IMG/VR virus record: IMGVR_UViG_3300048928_000645
Location: 1-31,589 of that record
Direction: 5' to 3' (one strand)
Length of the DNA: 31,589 nucleotides
Origin: a virus
Under the pieces are notes generated by a model. It saw nothing but the letters and a program-made list of their open reading frames with translations. It had not been told where the DNA came from and made no database searches. Both the position numbers and the translations under genes were made by a program. How positions within the stretch are numbered: position 1 is the first letter of the stretch; the number at the start of each line of letters is the position of its first letter. Shown in pieces: positions 3,061 to 31,589 of this stretch.

Positions 3061-3069
3061 GCTGTGCTA

Positions 3070-3894
3070 ATGATGACGGATTCGATTATCCATTATCACG
3101 GCACGCCAGTATGGGGAGACGCCGGTAACGTTCATCATGTTGCAGTGAATGGTGCTGGCGCTTTTGTTTCTTTTGCCAGACCTGACCAGCTCGCCGCCTC
3201 GATTAAATATGCTTGCGCCGTTGCTATTGATAATGGGGCTTTTTCCGCGTGGAAACGTGGTCTTGTTATCAATTGGCAGGAGTTTTATCGGTGGTTATTG
3301 CCCCACTATCATCACCCAAAGGTGTCTTTCTTTGTTATTCCTGATGTGGTTGAGGGTGGAGAAGCTGACAATGATGCCCTTATCGATTCAATGCCTCGCT
3401 GTTTCCGGGATAAAGCCGCGCCTGTCTGGCACCTTCATGAGTCATTAGACCGACTGGTTGAGCTTTGTAATGAATGGCCTCGGGTGTGCTTTGGCTCATC
3501 TGGTGAATATGCCAGCATCAGGACTGAGCGCTGGCATCGCAGGATGCGTGAAGCATTCGATGCAATTTATCTGAAACATAGCTTTAAAACTAAAATTCAT
3601 GGCCTTCGTATGCTGGATGGCCGTGTCCTTGGAAACTATCCGCTTGCTACTGCAGATAGCACAAATCTCGCCTGTAATATTCCAAAATTTACAAGCAAAT
3701 ACCCTGAGATAACTCGATTCATTCAGGAGGCGGATTACAACCAGAAACTGAGTGAGCGTGAACTTAAAGCCGCCATTCTTATTGGTCGCTGCGCTATTCT
3801 GAAAAACGCGATCGAGAGTGTCACGCCTCCTGCAATTCAATGCTGGTCCGAAATGCCAAAGCATCCGCAACAGTTGGAGCTTTTGGTGGCATGA
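3070..3894 (+). CDS. Putative DpdA/TGT-like TIM-barrel protein
   Basis: A 274-residue protein resembling the family related to tRNA-guanine transglycosylase and the phage DNA deazaguanine transglycosylase DpdA. Ordered motifs that fit: YHGTPVWG (N-terminus), AFVSFARPDQ, AIDNGAFSAWKRG near 56-68, FFVIPDVVEGGEAD near 90-103, PVWHLHESLDRL near 120, RVCFGSSGEY near 138, KIHGLRMLDGR near 177, and LATADSTNLACN near 192. The Asp residues of IPDV and ADST are the natural candidates for catalytic residues. DpdA enzymes swap guanine in DNA for a 7-deazaguanine base; the precursor could come from the host. No precursor-synthesis gene is seen here. The family call is from pattern memory and the substrate is unknown. 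Start is 3070 or 3073 (ATGATG). Its 3' end overlaps A. Confidence 0.55.
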   Translation: MMTDSIIHYHGTPVWGDAGNVHHVAVNGAGAFVSFARPDQLAASIKYACAVAIDNGAFSAWKRGLVINWQEFYRWLLPHYHHPKVSFFVIPDVVEGGEADNDALIDSMPRCFRDKAAPVWHLHESLDRLVELCNEWPRVCFGSSGEYASIRTERWHRRMREAFDAIYLKHSFKTKIHGLRMLDGRVLGNYPLATADSTNLACNIPKFTSKYPEITRFIQEADYNQKLSERELKAAILIGRCAILKNAIESVTPPAIQCWSEMPKHPQQLELLVA

Positions 3895-6104
3895 CTGATT
3901 TCACATACCCTTGGAATAAATCCCGTGAGGCCATCGGCCGCGACAGACCCCTTACACGTGCCGAACTCCGTCAGGTGCAAGGTGTTTTAAACCGCATTGA
4001 CCGTCTGCCATTTTTCCTGCAAACCCTGTTTACATCGCGTTATAACTTTATACGCCGTAAAAAGAGCCCTTTGGGTGGGCTGTATTTCCTTAAAAACACG
4101 TTTGAGCGCAAGTTGCTGCCGCGTCTTGAGCGTGTTAATGAGCTGTGCGGGATGAATGAATCCGCCTCGATTGGTTTTCTGTCCGAGCGCGACCAGTATG
4201 CGCGCTTACCAGATATGAATGACAAAGAACTCAGGAAATTTGCGGCCAGAATTGCCTCTCAGCTCTGGAGCAAATACGAGGAGTTAAGCGACGCCTGGGC
4301 GGAGGCGCACGGCGGGAAAGAGACACTTTTCACCGATGAAGCTCAGTCGCACCTATACGGGCAAGTGGCCGGTGTTGCTCGCGCATTTAACATCACCCCG
4401 ATGTACTGGAAAAAATACCATAAGGGTCAGATGACGATCCGCATGGCATTTTCCGCTATTTCACGACTGATTAAAGACGAGTGGTGGGTCAACCAGCTCA
4501 AGGCGCAGCGGATGCGCTGGCGCGAGGCGCTGCTCATCGCAGCAGGTGAGGTCAACAAAGACCGTTCACCTTACGCAAGCAAAATAGCGATCCGCGATGT
4601 TCACGCGCGCCGCTTGGCTAATCTCGAATACCTGAAATCCTGCGAACTGGAAAACAAAATCACTGGCGAACGTATTGACCTCATAAGCAAGGTCATGGGG
4701 AGTATTTCGAACCCTGAAATACGTCGTATGGAGCTGATGAATACTATCGCCGGGATTGAACGCTACGCGACCAGCGTTGGTGACGTGGGGATGTTTATCA
4801 CGCTGACCACGCCATCGAAGTATCACCCGACCCGTCAGGTTGGCAAAGGTGAAAGCAAAACGGTGCAGCTTAATCACGGCTGGAACGAAACAGCATTCAC
4901 ACCCAAAGACGGCCAGCGCTATCTATGCCGAATCTGGAGCCTGATGCGTACAGCTTTCAAAGATAACGATTTAGATGTTTACGGGATGCGCGTTGTCGAA
5001 CCGCACCACGACGGCACGCCACACTGGCACATGATGCTTTTTTGCAAACCCGGTCAGCGTAAAGCCATTAACGAAATTATGCGTCGTTATGCCCTCAAAG
5101 AGGACGGACACGAAAAGGGTGCGTCAAAACAGCGCTTTGAGTCACGCCATCTTAATCAGGGCGGAGCGGCGGGTTATATCGCTAAATATATTGCAAAAAA
5201 TATCGACGGTTACGCGCTCGACGGCCAGCTCGATCACGACACCGGCAAGCCTCTGAAAGATACGGCCGAAGCCGTCACCGCATGGGCGTCAACATGGCGT
5301 ATCCCTCAGTTTAAACCGATTGGTCTCCCGACGATGGGCGCTTACCGTGAACTGCGCAAACTGCCGCGTGGGGTGAGTATTGCCTGCGAGTTTGACGACA
5401 GGGTCGAGGCCGCGCGAGTTGCTGCAGATGAGGGGGACTTTGAGCGGTACATCATCGCGCAGGGTGGGGCAAACATGCCGCGTGATGCTCAGGCGGTCAG
5501 GGTCGCCCGTAAGGTGACGGATGAGGTCAACGAATACGAGGAAGATATCGAGAGGGTTGTCGGGATTTATGCCCCTCATCTCGGGGCTAATCGTGTCCAT
5601 GTAACCCGTACAGCCGAATGGCGCATCGTTCCAAAGGTTTTGGCCGTTGAGCCTTTGACCTTAAAAAGCGGCTCTGCCGCGCCTCGGAGTCCTGTCAATA
5701 ACTGTGGAAAGCCTACCGGCAGTGGCGATCCAGTTATGACCCCCACGCCGTCTGAGCAAGCCGCAGCGGTGTTAAATCTGATTGAGCTCGGGGTTATCGG
5801 CTGGAATGAGCCAGACGTCGTGAAAGTGCTTAACGGCGCGTTAAAAGCTGGTGCATCGCGCAAAAATCGCCAGCAAAGAAGCAATGCGCCACTTAAAACG
5901 AGGGAACAAGCGCCATCAGCCAGGATGACGAAGCCCGAGAGGGATCGAATCGCAAAAATTCGTTTCGAGTTAGCTCAGGAGGGTATTGCCCCTGAACGAT
6001 GGGAGATTGAAGCTCTGGCGAGAGGGGCAACAGTAATTTATGGGGATAAACGGTTTTGTTTTGCTGTACAGGAAAACTGGATGGTGTTTCCCTTAAACTG
6101 GTGA
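3840..6104 (+). CDS. A: Replication initiator A (HUH endonuclease)
   Basis: The rolling-circle initiator that nicks the phage origin and stays covalently attached to the DNA. The 754-residue product matches P2 gpA over most of its length. The HUH motif is HWH at 395-397 in VEPHHDGTPHWHMMLF, and the paired catalytic tyrosines are Y446 and Y450 in GYIAKYIAKNI, corresponding to Y450/Y454 of P2. Start 3840 overlaps the preceding gene by 55 bp and gives about the P2 length; an ATG at 3891 (ATGA overlap, better Shine-Dalgarno) is an alternative. In P2 the origin lies within this gene. It closes the early operon. Confidence 0.95.
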   Translation: MLVRNAKASATVGAFGGMTDFTYPWNKSREAIGRDRPLTRAELRQVQGVLNRIDRLPFFLQTLFTSRYNFIRRKKSPLGGLYFLKNTFERKLLPRLERVNELCGMNESASIGFLSERDQYARLPDMNDKELRKFAARIASQLWSKYEELSDAWAEAHGGKETLFTDEAQSHLYGQVAGVARAFNITPMYWKKYHKGQMTIRMAFSAISRLIKDEWWVNQLKAQRMRWREALLIAAGEVNKDRSPYASKIAIRDVHARRLANLEYLKSCELENKITGERIDLISKVMGSISNPEIRRMELMNTIAGIERYATSVGDVGMFITLTTPSKYHPTRQVGKGESKTVQLNHGWNETAFTPKDGQRYLCRIWSLMRTAFKDNDLDVYGMRVVEPHHDGTPHWHMMLFCKPGQRKAINEIMRRYALKEDGHEKGASKQRFESRHLNQGGAAGYIAKYIAKNIDGYALDGQLDHDTGKPLKDTAEAVTAWASTWRIPQFKPIGLPTMGAYRELRKLPRGVSIACEFDDRVEAARVAADEGDFERYIIAQGGANMPRDAQAVRVARKVTDEVNEYEEDIERVVGIYAPHLGANRVHVTRTAEWRIVPKVLAVEPLTLKSGSAAPRSPVNNCGKPTGSGDPVMTPTPSEQAAAVLNLIELGVIGWNEPDVVKVLNGALKAGASRKNRQQRSNAPLKTREQAPSARMTKPERDRIAKIRFELAQEGIAPERWEIEALARGATVIYGDKRFCFAVQENWMVFPLNW

Positions 6105-6180: not shown

Positions 6181-7491
6181 ATGGTTAAATTAAAGGATGA
6201 TGTTTCAGTGAAGATTGCTTTCGCGAGAGGTATGATAAACAGACTATGCAGGTGTTTTTTTTATAGGCATGATAAAGAGATACCTTGTATTCAAGTAGGT
6301 AAACCACTTCAAGATATAATTTTTTGGCTCAAATACAATGATGAGGAAGTGGCAAAATGCGCTAGCTCACTGTTAAGGAATTATGGGCAAAAATTAGGGA
6401 TAAGTGACCTTCATAGTGCTAAACAGTTGTTGTTAAGCTTTTGCTCTGAAGCCTTCAACTGTATAGATGCCGATTTCTTATCGCTTAACCTAGAGCAAAG
6501 TTCCGTTGATAGTATAATATCAAAAGTGCATAGGGCAAATCTCTGTGAAATGTTTGGTTATTTTATAACCTCACAAATGAAACTTTACCCTTATATATAC
6601 AATCTTGGTTGTGTTAGGTTTGATGGGCAATTAAAGTTACAGGATAATCTTTATCTCTTTGGCCCAGGGCAGGGTACGGCTTTATTGTCTAATATTAAAT
6701 CTAAAGCTGGCATTGACGTTTATGAATCCTTCTTTGATGAGACAGATATACGAGATGAACCTATTGGGAGATATTTCAATCATTCATGCTCGACAGCTAT
6801 ACTTATCTATGCATCATCTCAACAGGATGCAGTTGAGATGTTGAATCTGCTATTCGGTGGGTTATGTGTTACTGTGAATAATCCATTCGCTATTAACTCC
6901 TGTGATGTTAATAATAAAATTGAGAGTTTCTCTGAGGGGAAGTATCATATTTCTAATTTTCGTGTAAACATTCCATCACTGTTAGTTTTAAATATTGATA
7001 ATTTGGTTTGCGAACGGTTAGTAAAAATATTATCTAGATCTGATAAGCGTGTTTTATCTGCTCTTTCGTTCATTGCTCATGGTTGGGGGAGTGATCGCCG
7101 TGAGAGGTTTTTAAATCAATTTATAGCTCTTGATGCAATGTATGGTAATAATGCAGGTAACAAAACATCGATTATTGGTGGTGTCTGTCGTGATGCGATA
7201 AATATCTTTGATGTAAGATCTAAAATAGAAATAATCTACGAACTTAGATGCAAGTTTGTTCATGGCGATATTTCCACTTTATCGGCGCATGTGAAATATC
7301 TAAAATTTGTAGATTGCCACGGGAGCGATCCTGTTGAGTCTCTTTTTGAAATACTTAAAGAGTGCGTTCTCAATTATCAAGGTGTGTATGAAGCTCCAAA
7401 AGAATATAGTAACTCTCGGACAATGGATGTACCTGTTGAGCTTGCTGAGGATGTAAAAAAGATGATTGAGAGCTTCAAAAGTGGCAAGTGA
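6181..7491 (+). CDS. Accessory protein with Apea-like HEPN motif, candidate defence gene
   Basis: A 436-residue protein not known from the P2 core. The C-terminal third has RRERFLNQFIALDAMYGN near 305-323, followed by ELRCKFVHG containing R356-x4-H361. This spacing and context are typical of Apea-like HEPN domains, whose Arg and His form the RNase active site. The N-terminal 270 residues show no motif I recognise. It is strikingly AT-rich compared with A and Q, which suggests recent acquisition. It occupies the A-cos slot where P2 carries the exclusion genes tin and old. An anti-phage RNase or abortive-infection role is inferred. A ribosome binding site GGGGTG precedes the ATG. Confidence 0.65.
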   Translation: MVKLKDDVSVKIAFARGMINRLCRCFFYRHDKEIPCIQVGKPLQDIIFWLKYNDEEVAKCASSLLRNYGQKLGISDLHSAKQLLLSFCSEAFNCIDADFLSLNLEQSSVDSIISKVHRANLCEMFGYFITSQMKLYPYIYNLGCVRFDGQLKLQDNLYLFGPGQGTALLSNIKSKAGIDVYESFFDETDIRDEPIGRYFNHSCSTAILIYASSQQDAVEMLNLLFGGLCVTVNNPFAINSCDVNNKIESFSEGKYHISNFRVNIPSLLVLNIDNLVCERLVKILSRSDKRVLSALSFIAHGWGSDRRERFLNQFIALDAMYGNNAGNKTSIIGGVCRDAINIFDVRSKIEIIYELRCKFVHGDISTLSAHVKYLKFVDCHGSDPVESLFEILKECVLNYQGVYEAPKEYSNSRTMDVPVELAEDVKKMIESFKSGK

Positions 7492-7642: not shown

Positions 7643-7661
7643 GGCGAGGCGGGGATAGCAC
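7643..7661 (+). other. cos site (19-nt cohesive end)
   Basis: GGCGAGGCGGGGATAGCAC matches the P2 cohesive end as I remember it (GGCGAGGCGGGGAAAGCAC) at 18 of 19 positions. It lies in the expected place between the A-side accessory slot and Q. This is where the P/M terminase would make the staggered cut during packaging of circular DNA. Confidence 0.88.
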
Positions 7662-7784: not shown

Positions 7785-8009
7785 ATGGACAACTATCACA
7801 TAACTAAAGACGGTGATAAGTGGAAATTACAGAAAGAAGGGAATACCAAGCCAAGTAAAACGGCTGACACTAAAGCAGAAATGATTAAACAGACTCAAGA
7901 GTTTATGGCTGATAAGCAGGGCTCTGTCAAAATTCACAAGGTGGACGGTAAGTTTCAAGAGGAAAGAACGTATCCGAGGAAGGATGACCCTAAATCTTCA
8001 AAAGGTTAG
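7785..8009 (+). CDS. DUF2188-family small protein
   Basis: A 74-residue protein with the DUF2188 pattern: YHITKDGDKWKLQKEG, then a Thr/Ala-rich helix (TKAEMIKQTQEFMADKQG), then VKIHKVDGKFQEERTYPRKDDP. This family consists of short alpha/beta proteins common in bacteria and mobile elements, with no established function I can name. GGAGG 7 bases before the ATG is a strong ribosome binding site. It lies between cos and Q, so it would be the first gene at the left end of the packaged genome. P2 has no gene there as I recall. It faces Q tail-to-tail across a shared terminator. Confidence 0.8.
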   Translation: MDNYHITKDGDKWKLQKEGNTKPSKTADTKAEMIKQTQEFMADKQGSVKIHKVDGKFQEERTYPRKDDPKSSKG

Positions 8010-8043: not shown

Positions 8044-9066
8044 TTAGTTCGCAAGATCATAATCTTTGAAGCGGATTACCTCAGTCCCGAGCCAGTCATT
8101 GACCTCTTTGAAACGCTCCTGCAGCGGCGTCAGCTCGTTACGCACAAATACCCGCGCCACCTTCTCGATATCGCCCATCGAGCCGATATTCTCCGGCTTG
8201 CCGCCCATAAGCTGGAACGGCACGCGGTGCGCATCGAGCAGGTCGGCAGCGCTCACCTTCTTGATATTGAAAAAATCATCCTTCGTGGCGACTTCACTCA
8301 ACGGCACGATCTTAATGCCATCCGGTTTCCCGTTCGGGGCATAGAAAAACAGGTTTTTGAAATTCCCGAGCCCTTTCGAGTCGCGCATCGCGGAGCGCAG
8401 CGCCTCAACGTCGGTGCTGCTCTGCGCCGCGTCGGTCACGTACATGATGTAACCCGCGTGCGCGCCGTTCTGGTAATACTTGCGACGAAACAGCGTGGCG
8501 GATTCATTCAGCCAGGCAGAATTGAGCGCGCTCAGGTATTCCGGCATCCCGTAGAGCTCCTGGTTGATATCAGGCTCAAGCAGATGAAACACCGAACCGG
8601 GGGCAAACTGGTGCGGGTGGGTAAAGCTCGACACGTACCAGTAAACGCCATCCTCCACGCCACGGCGGGTATATTTGGCCGGTGAGGTTTCCAGCTTTAA
8701 GAGCTGGCCGGTCACGCTCATGCGCTTTTCGAGATAGCCGTTTGCAAACACCAGATAATCAAGCACAAGGCGGCTGAAGTCCTGACGCGACAGCAACGGG
8801 TGCGGGATAAAGGTGCTGGACAGAATGTTGCGCTTTACGTAAATCGGAGAGCTGTGGTGCACGGCGGCACGCAGGCTTTTTGCCAGTCCCGAGAAGTTGA
8901 CCGGCGGCTCGTACCATTTGCCGTTATTGATGCATTCGACATAGTCGAGAATGTCGCGGCGATCCAGAACGGGGGAGGGCTCACCAAAGGTGAACGCCTC
9001 CATTTTCTGCGACGTGCTGGCCGTCATGTTGGTCTGTTTTGGCTGTTTCTTTTGGCGCTTTTTCAT
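8044..9066 (-). CDS. Q: Portal protein Q
   Basis: The capsid portal, a 12-mer at one vertex through which DNA enters and to which the tail is joined. It has 340 residues (P2 gpQ about 344) with the PBSX/P2 portal pattern: AFTFGEPSPVLDRRDILDYVEC at the N-terminus, GVYWYVSSFTHPHQF near 140, and the region with LYGMPEYLSALNSAWLNESA near 170-190. HRVPFQLMGGKPEN near 285 is also typical of the family. It is translated directly after P with a 1-nt gap on the leftward late transcript. Confidence 0.95.
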   Translation of the reverse strand: MKKRQKKQPKQTNMTASTSQKMEAFTFGEPSPVLDRRDILDYVECINNGKWYEPPVNFSGLAKSLRAAVHHSSPIYVKRNILSSTFIPHPLLSRQDFSRLVLDYLVFANGYLEKRMSVTGQLLKLETSPAKYTRRGVEDGVYWYVSSFTHPHQFAPGSVFHLLEPDINQELYGMPEYLSALNSAWLNESATLFRRKYYQNGAHAGYIMYVTDAAQSSTDVEALRSAMRDSKGLGNFKNLFFYAPNGKPDGIKIVPLSEVATKDDFFNIKKVSAADLLDAHRVPFQLMGGKPENIGSMGDIEKVARVFVRNELTPLQERFKEVNDWLGTEVIRFKDYDLAN

Positions 9067-16803: not shown

Positions 16804-17979
16804 ATGAAAAAATCAGAATATGTATTAGAAGATAAAAGAGTTGATTGTCTCTCTGTTATTCATACAACCAAGTTGTCTGATTATTTGTCTTTCGCGGAAA
16901 AGGCTTATGAAGATAAAGGGGGGATTTATGGTCAAAGAGCTCCTTTAAAAACTAAAACTGCTCAGACTATACGTGAAAGAATGGTGTCTGATATAATTGA
17001 TGGTGCCGTTCTTCCTCCTATAGTTATTGGTGTAATAGTTGATGAGGATGTTTATGAAAAAATCAAGGCTGTTTCAGATGAATGTTCTTTCGAAAAACTA
17101 AATGACACTATTGATAAAACATCCCTATCTATCATTGATGGAATGCAAAGGACAACTGCATTCTTACAGGCTGTAAAAGAAAATGAAAGTGTTTATGATA
17201 AAACCATTAGAATAGAGTATTGGTTTTCTAAAAGCATGAATAGTTTGATTTACAGAATGCTTGTTCTTAATACAGGGCAAGTGCCATGGGATATAAAAAG
17301 ACAACTTGATACAATCTATGATTCTATTATAAAGGATTTAAAGAAGTCTATTCCTAACTTAGATATAAGGTTAATAGGCCAGTCAAGCCGAAGAACACAG
17401 GCAGGTCAATATCAAAGTAGTAAATTAATTGAGTATTTCTTATGTTTTTCTTCTAGGAAAACAGATATAGATTTAAAAGAAAAGGTCTCAGAAGATTTCG
17501 CAAGAATGGATGCAATTGAGTCGACTTCTGACAATCATTTCCTTACTAACTTTAAAGCAGTTTTAAAATTAATGGTTGACTTGGATCATGAGTTTTCAAG
17601 ATATAAAGATGAACAACAAGAAGGCCGTATTAAAGTTGGTAAAGATATTTTTACAAGCATACCAGCTGGTGTTGGGTTTGTTGCGGCTGCGGCTGCGTAC
17701 ATATATGGCCCTCCAGGATTTAAATCTTCTAAAGAGGAAAGTGACAGATGTTGTCAGGAGTTAATTCAAAAAGTTTCTGGTTTAATTGAGCGGCTTTCTG
17801 CTCTCAATGAGGATGATCTTGGAAGATTCTTGCAGTTTTCACTGCTAAATGAAAAACTCAGCGCAAGATCAAGTAAGATTGGTCAATACGAGCGAGAGTT
17901 TTATTACAAAGCATTCGAAGCTTGTATGAAATATGTTGATCGTTTAGAAGACTTTGGACCTTGTTGGCAGGCTAAATAA
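16804..17979 (+). CDS. DGQHR/DUF262 (ParB-fold)-like protein, candidate defence component
   Basis: A 391-residue protein foreign to the P2 backbone. The key motif is LSIIDGMQRTTAFLQA, with D112, G113, Q115, R116 and T117. It resembles the DGQQR/DGQHR motif of the ParB/sulfiredoxin-fold proteins such as DndB-type DGQHR proteins and DUF262. It is preceded by VLPPIVIGVIV near 60-72, as in those families. The following RMLVLNTGQVPWDIKRQLD near 146-165 also fits. The C-terminal half is helical with no recognised motif. It is strongly AT-rich. The gene shares one base with the next gene's start, so the two are translationally coupled. Relatives act in DNA modification-dependent restriction or nucleotide-dependent DNA binding; the activity here is unknown. 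Confidence 0.55.
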   Translation: MKKSEYVLEDKRVDCLSVIHTTKLSDYLSFAEKAYEDKGGIYGQRAPLKTKTAQTIRERMVSDIIDGAVLPPIVIGVIVDEDVYEKIKAVSDECSFEKLNDTIDKTSLSIIDGMQRTTAFLQAVKENESVYDKTIRIEYWFSKSMNSLIYRMLVLNTGQVPWDIKRQLDTIYDSIIKDLKKSIPNLDIRLIGQSSRRTQAGQYQSSKLIEYFLCFSSRKTDIDLKEKVSEDFARMDAIESTSDNHFLTNFKAVLKLMVDLDHEFSRYKDEQQEGRIKVGKDIFTSIPAGVGFVAAAAAYIYGPPGFKSSKEESDRCCQELIQKVSGLIERLSALNEDDLGRFLQFSLLNEKLSARSSKIGQYEREFYYKAFEACMKYVDRLEDFGPCWQAK

Positions 17980-19091
17980 TGTCATCTATCAGAGATAGTA
18001 TAGATTATATATTTGATACTTTGTGTGTTGCCGGGGGAGGTTCAAAAACCCGGCATAAAATGAAGCCTGCTAAACCAAGCAGCGATGAGATTGAGTGCTT
18101 TAAGCGTTTAAGGTTTAAAGCTGAGGATATGTTTACCCTGTTAAATGGAAATGCTTTTTACCATTTTCAAGAGCATGAAGAAGACGCTGGGGGAAGGATA
18201 ACGGTAATAGACTATTTTGCTGTGAAAAACATATTTCCCTCAGAGTTTAATAAAGAGATGTTTGAGGAGTACTTCAGTGTATGTGATGTTACTGAATCTT
18301 TCTTTGTGTTTTTGTGTCCTTCATTGAAACTAAAGATAAGAGAAGATGTTTTGCCACAAGAAATTTCAAATAACATTCTTTTCCAACAAGATGATGCTCT
18401 ATATCAAGGGCACTACATACCCGAATTGATCGATTATTTTGAGCCGCTTACAATCTTTCGTCTTGATGATTTGTCAGCGGATTTCAATAGATCCTTTTTG
18501 TCAAGCGCTTATTATTTACTGAGTAGTTGTCAGGATGTAATAACATTGCCTTTGGCTAGCGAGACAATCGATAAGTTGAGAGCTCTTTTTATTAAGAAAG
18601 TTAAAATACCAAAAGATAATGTCTTCTTATCATTGACATCTTCACATTTAAAACACTGCTTTTTAGAATTATATAGATGCATAGAGTGGTTATATGTCAT
18701 TCCAAGGAGTAGACGTCTGAAAGGGGTTATTCAATATTCCAGGCCTGCATATGAGCTTGCTGTTCATTGTATAGATGAATTGTCATGGAGGAGAAAAGAA
18801 GAGGATTCACTTTCGCGAATTGTAACTGATGTTCTTCAAAACTATGAAGATGTAAGTTTCAAATTAGTGGGGTGTGGTCTATTTAATGGGGTTAATATTG
18901 ATTCGGAAGGTATTGCAAAACACTTATATTCTTTTCGAAACCAATTTGTGCACCAATTTGAAGCGCGGAAAGAAAAAGATGTTTTAAATGAGCATCTTAT
19001 TGAAGTCATAGATTTGATTGCTGACTTCATAATCCATGCTTATGATTTATATGATGTCGATATTATTCCATGGCGGGACGAGCAAGTTTGA
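17979..19091 (+). CDS. Protein with HEPN-like Rx4H motif, partner of the upstream gene
   Basis: A 370-residue protein, AT-rich, second gene of the cassette. Near the C-terminus LYSFRNQFVHQFEAR contains R320-x4-H325, the HEPN ribonuclease-type motif, placed between two predicted helices as in HEPN domains. The rest is mostly helical with no other recognised motif; it contains several hydrophobic/aromatic stretches (FLSSAYYLLSS near 170) but no clear transmembrane segment. It starts at the last base of the upstream stop (TAATG) and is followed by a terminator, so both proteins probably act together. A toxin/effector RNase controlled by its partner is a reasonable inference, not shown. Confidence 0.5.
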   Translation: MSSIRDSIDYIFDTLCVAGGGSKTRHKMKPAKPSSDEIECFKRLRFKAEDMFTLLNGNAFYHFQEHEEDAGGRITVIDYFAVKNIFPSEFNKEMFEEYFSVCDVTESFFVFLCPSLKLKIREDVLPQEISNNILFQQDDALYQGHYIPELIDYFEPLTIFRLDDLSADFNRSFLSSAYYLLSSCQDVITLPLASETIDKLRALFIKKVKIPKDNVFLSLTSSHLKHCFLELYRCIEWLYVIPRSRRLKGVIQYSRPAYELAVHCIDELSWRRKEEDSLSRIVTDVLQNYEDVSFKLVGCGLFNGVNIDSEGIAKHLYSFRNQFVHQFEARKEKDVLNEHLIEVIDLIADFIIHAYDLYDVDIIPWRDEQV

Positions 19092-30824: not shown

Positions 30825-31589
30825 TTAACCTCGTTTTGTCATTTCATTAGCTAACTCTAAAGACCAATTAAGTTGATTCTTTGCATCTACTATGAAGTGT
30901 AATGCTCTCGCACATTGTAACTGGGCAGTCTCATAGGCATGAATATTGCCAAAAGAAGTGGGAACTATTTGTATTTCAGGCGTGTAGTATTGGAAGATGC
31001 TGATTTGTGAAGGATGCACATATTCGCTAAGTATGTCATACGTTAGTTCAAAATAGCTTTCCTTCTGATTAGTTTGCTTCAGCTCATCCTCATAGAGATC
31101 GCGTAATGCGTTCATCACATGCTGACTGACAGCAAGTAAGTTTTCAAAACGATATTTAGCCTGTTCAGTAAACATATAGTCGTTAGGGTCAAATACTCCT
31201 TTTTGAATCTTTTCTTGTTCTGATTTTTTGAATCGTGAACTGTTTGTAAATCCCAAGATGACATCTAGTGCTTTATCTACACTTTCGTGGCCGCTTTGGT
31301 TAGTCAAAATCTTCTCAACTTTCTTGTTTAAAAGTCGTGAGAAAGCATGTGTCTCAATCATCCCCCGACTAATAATACAAGCGGCCTGGTATCGTTCGTT
31401 TTCGAGGAGGTGAAGCCCATCATCAAAAATGTCTATCTGCCTGTTCATGAGTAAATTGGCATAGTTAGCGAGATACAACCCACTAGCGGGATTATGCATT
31501 TTTCCGACAGCGACGCCTGTAATATGGCTCAACTCAGCCCTGGCGGCTTTTGCCTCATTCAGGTTCTGTTCTATAAGTTTTTTATACAT
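30825..31589 (-). CDS. Flanking DUF5677-like protein (HEPN-related), host side
   Basis: A 254-residue leftward ORF whose first codon is at the window edge, so it may be longer. Blocks fit the DUF5677/Cthe_2314-like group: ERYQAACIISRGMIETHAF near 64-82, and YDILSEYVHPSQISIF near 185-200. The VHPS segment is typical of this group but lacks the Arg of the catalytic Rx4H motif. It lies 9 bp outside the attR core, hence on the bacterial chromosome unless another element adjoins. Function unknown; HEPN-related proteins often accompany defence loci. It is AT-rich compared with the prophage backbone. Confidence 0.6.
   Translation of the reverse strand: MYKKLIEQNLNEAKAARAELSHITGVAVGKMHNPASGLYLANYANLLMNRQIDIFDDGLHLLENERYQAACIISRGMIETHAFSRLLNKKVEKILTNQSGHESVDKALDVILGFTNSSRFKKSEQEKIQKGVFDPNDYMFTEQAKYRFENLLAVSQHVMNALRDLYEDELKQTNQKESYFELTYDILSEYVHPSQISIFQYYTPEIQIVPTSFGNIHAYETAQLQCARALHFIVDAKNQLNWSLELANEMTKRG

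Follow-up and report, generated by a model that had tools for sequence, protein, structure and literature searches.

A HEPN-type gene as candidate single-gene defence cargo between gpA and cos of a P2-like prophage

What kind of gene lies between the replication gene and cos of a P2-like prophage, and does it defend the lysogen? The window studied here comprises positions 1 to 31,589 of an IMG/VR virus record and represents a P2-like prophage. The closest named backbone was that of Enterobacter phage ENT4, which matched the window segment 7492-30000 with 87% identity over 77%. In P2, cos is at the genome ends, and tin and old lie beside it. The 19-nt cos core of the window had 0 expected matches in shuffled sequences; the cos ends of P2 read GGCGAGGCGGGGAAAGCAC, and the same 19-nt site was found in P2 and its relatives. 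Between the end of gpA (position 6104) and the cos core (7643-7661), 6181-7491 was the sole gene, which confirms the arrangement given in a preliminary description of this DNA. The features are collected in Table 1.

Table 1. Features of the slot beside cos and its borders (window coordinates).
Feature	Position	Strand	Basis or details
gpA replication endonuclease homologue, left slot border	3840..6104	+	PF05840 E=6.5e-110; phrog_91
Candidate single-gene defence effector	6181..7491	+	ORF, ATG start, 436 aa; phrog_23812 family
N-terminal and middle region, residues 1-265, putative sensor/regulatory part	6181..6975	+	without recognised family
C-terminal HEPN-type domain, residues 285-403	7033..7389	+	HHalign, hmmsearch, AlphaFold
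R356-x4-H361, predicted RNase active-site motif	7246..7263	+	only R....H in the protein
cos core, right slot border	7643..7661	+	19-nt pattern match GGCGAGGCGGGGATAGCAC
DUF2188 ORF, 74 aa, between cos and gpQ	7785..8009	+	PF09954 E=1.1e-18; PADLOC PDC-S16; phrog_3220
Portal protein gpQ, past cos	8044..9066	-	PF04860; phrog_68

The 6181-7491 frame is certainly a true coding gene, because its protein has full-length homologues of 47-95% identity, dN/dS across homologue pairs was 0.18-0.27, and phrog_23812 (an unnamed family with no assigned function) was matched end to end (433 residues, E=1.2e-187). Selection on the gene is purifying and is strongest on the C-terminal domain in most pairs, the HEPN-type part having the lowest dN/dS there. 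The GC content of the gene was approximately 0.34-0.35, compared with 0.55-0.61 in the structural genes and backbone; the AT-rich gene of 436 residues described earlier is thus real (~0.35 against a backbone of 55-60% GC). A SET-domain match of the protein (E 0.14) was rejected as noise.

The preliminary description had also pointed to an Apea-like HEPN block, and both of its segments were present in the protein: RRERFLNQFIALDAMYG at residues 306-322 and ELRCKFVHG at residues 354-362. The protein has a single R....H (residues 356-361), where composition predicts 0.41; by itself, the motif therefore says nothing for HEPN. The invariance of R and H among close homologues adds little to the case. 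R356 and H361 do not vary among the 11 members of the family or among the bridging HEPN proteins introduced below, and they have the Rx4-6H spacing of HEPN domains. A lack of Arg/His conservation, named beforehand together with a missing defence phenotype as evidence against the reading, was not seen; every homologue keeps both residues.

No HEPN family was matched in Pfam, NCBIfam or PADLOC by the full protein, by its homologues or by the isolated domain, and PDB sequence searches gave nothing relevant. Residues 270-412 had weak matches on plasmids (E ~1); five of the seven belonged to one Cronobacter family, and four were labelled HEPN by NCBI. In pairwise comparison with this family, IYELRCKFVHG aligned to IYQLRSKLVHG, and RFLNQFIALDAMYG to SFLQICMGLEALLG. 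Starting from the Cronobacter family, tblastn led to HEPN-labelled proteins of Klebsiella, Priestia, Listeria and Rhizobiales. In hmmsearch, a profile of 17 bridging domains recovered the Shewanella members of the family (E=8e-9) and the window protein (7e-4), both ranking higher than every decoy. After removal of the enterobacterial sequences from the profile, the Shewanella members still reached 2e-7 and the window protein only 0.07. This indicates that, without the enterobacterial bridge proteins, the HEPN link of the window protein runs via its Shewanella homologues. The family domain aligned to the full bridge set in HHalign over 114 columns (Prob 95, E 3.8e-8), with R and H in register; none of the controls (the alignment reversed, or its columns shuffled in eight runs) reached 1% probability. 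The profile relationship to HEPN found in this way depends on the HEPN name that NCBI gives to the bridge proteins, and no tie of that name to Pfam HEPN_Apea or to a solved structure was found. Invariant residues in the 14 bridging proteins were limited to E, R, Y, R-S and H; at the corresponding positions, the window protein reads D, R, Y, R and H. Thus the Cronobacter, Enterobacter and Klebsiella plasmid HEPN proteins (WP_175299785.1, WP_047719672.1) and their Rhizobiales, Listeria and Priestia relatives share a homologous C-terminal domain with the window protein (Prob 95%), the likeness being limited to this domain and amounting to ~25% identity for the Cronobacter proteins.

The full-length AlphaFold model, built with 11 sequences, was confident only for approximately residues 11-130, and its C-terminal part was unusable (mean pLDDT 48), as was the Foldseek search made with this model. 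Residues 262-412 modelled with the bridging sequences were all-helical (pLDDT 83, pTM 0.78). One modelled helix (model residues 84-99, protein residues 345-360) holds R356 and ends right before H361. In the HEPN layout, helix 3 carries the motif at its end (PMC3710099), and the third helix predicted for the bundle in our model likewise has Rx4H there. The Foldseek search of the domain against PDB was not significant; the top TM-scores in the list belonged to the HEPN entries 7bxo and 2hsb (E>1). The predicted structure is therefore consistent with a HEPN domain and is not proof of one. A confident non-HEPN fold, which the preliminary description had set as a reason to abandon its reading, appeared neither in the model nor in the Foldseek search. 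A helical domain unrelated to HEPN, with an R....H by coincidence, would agree with the chance expectation of this motif, the missing Pfam match and the non-significant Foldseek result, but we consider it highly improbable, as the profile-profile match (E 3.8e-8) has the motif in register and its controls stayed below 1% probability, leave-out profiles still recover the Shewanella members, and the helical layout fits. The HEPN assignment of residues 285-403 is well supported by hmmsearch, HHalign and the conservation of R356 and H361, and this part of the preliminary description is very probably correct.

The term Apea-like proved looser than the preliminary description implied. Membership of PF18739 was supported neither by Pfam scans nor by profile comparison: Pfam HEPN_Apea had no match at E<=10 for any of nine family members, short of the gathering cut-off, the comparison with nine genuine PF18739 proteins drawn from genomes was negative, and the bridge set had no link to PF18739 proteins (Prob 2%). 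Proteins of PF18739, including DzbB of the window (17979-19091), have a HEPN-type Rx4H near the C-terminus as the window HEPN protein does, but the latter had no significant match to PF18739 or to DzbB.

DzbB itself has a weak Pfam HEPN_Apea match (E=0.001). Together with DzbA it forms a Dazbog-like pair at window positions 16804-19091 (PADLOC E=4.7e-55 for DzbA and 5.6e-10 for DzbB; GC ~0.35). The pair lies between the S and V homologues, which is the place of orf30 in P2, and gives this prophage a second site of defence cargo. The minus strand carries an AT-rich DUF5677 ORF (30825-31589), which is cut by the window end and had no PHROG or PADLOC match. The ORF upstream of gpA (3064-3891) matched phrog_887, annotated as queuine tRNA-ribosyltransferase (E=1e-91), and had no Pfam match at E<=0.01. 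In rhizobia, we observed a plasmid HEPN protein family of ~465 aa with RS/RN-xxx-H motifs (L051, NZ_CP123840.1; L053; L054), whose genes adjoin TIR, GIY-YIG or thermonuclease genes.

The P2 locus has been termed an anti-phage hotspot, and several of its systems are protective, a DUF4238 protein included (PMC9122126; PMC9519451). Gene 6181-7491 lies between gpA and gpQ and adjoins cos, as cargo of P2 hotspot 1 does. The slots of related prophages were inspected, as the preliminary description had proposed, and their contents differed. The ENT4 slot (L024:3365-5593) holds a PrrC-like AAA_13 protein (PADLOC PDC-S06, E=6.6e-256); HEPN RNases are reportedly carried by PrrC-type proteins too (PMC3710099). 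The slot of pro483 holds a DUF4238 protein, matching PADLOC DUF4238-Pers over its full length, and a DUF4238-type protein has been shown to block T7 (PMC9122126). Small genes occupy the slot of Yersinia phage vB_YenM_201.16. Thus ENT4, pro483, P2 and vB_YenM_201.16 carry other genes between the same gpA and gpQ flanks. The P2 tin and old, DUF4238 and other hotspot-1 proteins share this slot beside cos (PMC9122126, PMC9519451) but are unrelated to the window protein, and tin and old are encoded on the other strand.

In the P2-like loci fetched (62-95% identical), the HEPN gene was again the sole gene between gpA and cos, ending ~150 bp before cos. The layout of the HEPN-to-cos block was constant in all of them, and no conserved partner gene was found next to the HEPN gene. 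A homologue with ~69% nucleotide identity was present in 45 of 5,426 complete E. coli genomes (~0.8%). Among the 30 matches listed for a wider query, a single alignment covered the end of gpA through the gene in all 30, and most carried the NCBI product name 'HEPN domain-containing protein'. In E. coli strain 4/4, the copy is between gpA and the portal gene, with no other gene there. The E. coli protein WP_063267205.1, which bears the same product name, belongs to phrog_23812, occupies the same gpA-cos slot, is 62% identical and keeps Rx4H; it does not differ in kind from the window protein, and no characterisation of the E. coli form was found. Proteins with 49% and 47% identity were found in Shewanella indica and S. 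electrodiphila, respectively, both outside any P2-like prophage. The S. indica copy is ~0.7 kb from two adjacent GmrSD_N-domain genes, and the S. electrodiphila copy is a lone gene in surroundings without phage genes. We count these Shewanella copies, one of them beside two GmrSD_N proteins, in favour of mobility. Searches of phage and plasmid collections gave no match to the 436-aa protein at E<=1e-3, and no further relatives were found in ~394-395 sampled genomes of the same order. The best reading places gene 6181-7491 among the cargo that prophages carry in P2 defence hotspot 1.

The gene could also have a real HEPN domain and serve the phage's own cycle, for example as a lytic-phase host-shutoff or RNA-processing RNase co-transcribed with gpA. 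It is on the same strand as gpA, 76 bp downstream, with no consensus promoter found in the gap, an arrangement that also counts against a defence role in the lysogen. The gpA-HEPN-cos block is kept in divergent P2-like prophages, and the divergence of the gene roughly matches that of its flanks: between the window locus and E. coli-type loci, identity is 75% for gpA, 62% for the HEPN protein and 79% for gpQ. We consider this use unlikely, since the gene is missing from most related phages, such as ENT4 and P2, and the Shewanella copies exist without a P2-like phage. In addition, the defence-type DUF4238 gene of pro483 has the same orientation and position after gpA.

HEPN toxins are known in HEPN-MNT pairs, and a small DUF2188 ORF follows cos, so the gene was also weighed as the toxin of a toxin-antitoxin pair or as a prophage-maintenance module. 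Next to HEPN homologues, the DUF2188 ORF occurred otherwise only in a locus 100% identical over the HEPN gene (L001). It was absent beside the other homologues and was rejected as a partner. Open minus-strand frames overlap the 3' end of the gene; as none of them persists across the E. coli-type loci, a Tha-like antisense inhibitor was rejected as well. With the gene alone between gpA and cos and no small Tha/Ith-type antisense frame intact at its 3' end, a toxin or maintenance module appears very unlikely. Two relatives carry genes past cos. A SIR2 protein (PDC-S25) was found at L018:1840-3351, and L019:4614-6631 holds a RusA-like and AHJR-like nuclease pair, plus another minus-strand gene; the AHJR-like nuclease has R-x4-H close to its C-terminus. 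From these two cases, the cargo site seems to span both sides of cos.

How might a single HEPN gene act as defence cargo? Tha of Staphylococcus phages 80alpha and phiNM2 is a tested one-gene RNase abortive-infection system. Its N-terminal part is unassigned, the His of its C-terminal HEPN domain is needed for protection, and phage tail proteins are its trigger (PMC11087260). The window protein shares this layout of an N-terminal part without recognised domain and a C-terminal HEPN domain with Rx4H. BLASTP with the window protein found no Tha-1 homology. Tha also has an antisense inhibitor gene. No PADLOC defence-system model matched the 436-aa protein, and its N-terminal and middle region belongs to no Pfam, PADLOC or NCBIfam family. 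We know of no defence phenotype for any homologue of the window HEPN protein.

An anti-phage role of the gene is likely. By analogy with tested systems, we infer an abortive-infection mechanism and give a probability of approximately 60% to the reading that the gene encodes a one-gene abortive-infection RNase with an N-terminal sensor part. The N-terminal ~270 residues would sense an infecting phage. Once freed by sensing, the C-terminal HEPN domain would, probably as a dimer, cleave RNA via R356 and H361, as homology suggests. RNA cutting would then halt translation, and the infected lysogen would die or arrest before the rival phage matures. Defence without RNA cleavage, in which the HEPN-like domain serves for binding or oligomerisation and blocking falls to the N-terminal part, would suit the enterobacterial members, which have Cys after the Arg in place of the usual polar N/D/H, and the RNase assignment is based on homology only. 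We hold this to be quite unlikely, since every member and every bridging protein retains both R and H, and in most pairs constraint is highest on the HEPN part. The preliminary description was supported in holding a single-gene RNase exclusion system plausible. We suggest only tentatively that P2-like prophages and Shewanella chromosomes might share a new type of sensor, in which the ~270-residue N-terminal region detects phage directly and is joined to a HEPN RNase.

Overall, gene 6181-7491 is uncharacterised, conserved cargo, and both the hotspot and the kind of HEPN effector are already known. The finding leaves the established picture of the P2 hotspot and of HEPN effectors unchanged. If the abortive-infection reading is true, the gene would add to the prophage-borne RNase defences one more easily cloned one-gene system, whose sensor part is unexplained and whose active-site residues are precisely predicted (R356 and H361).
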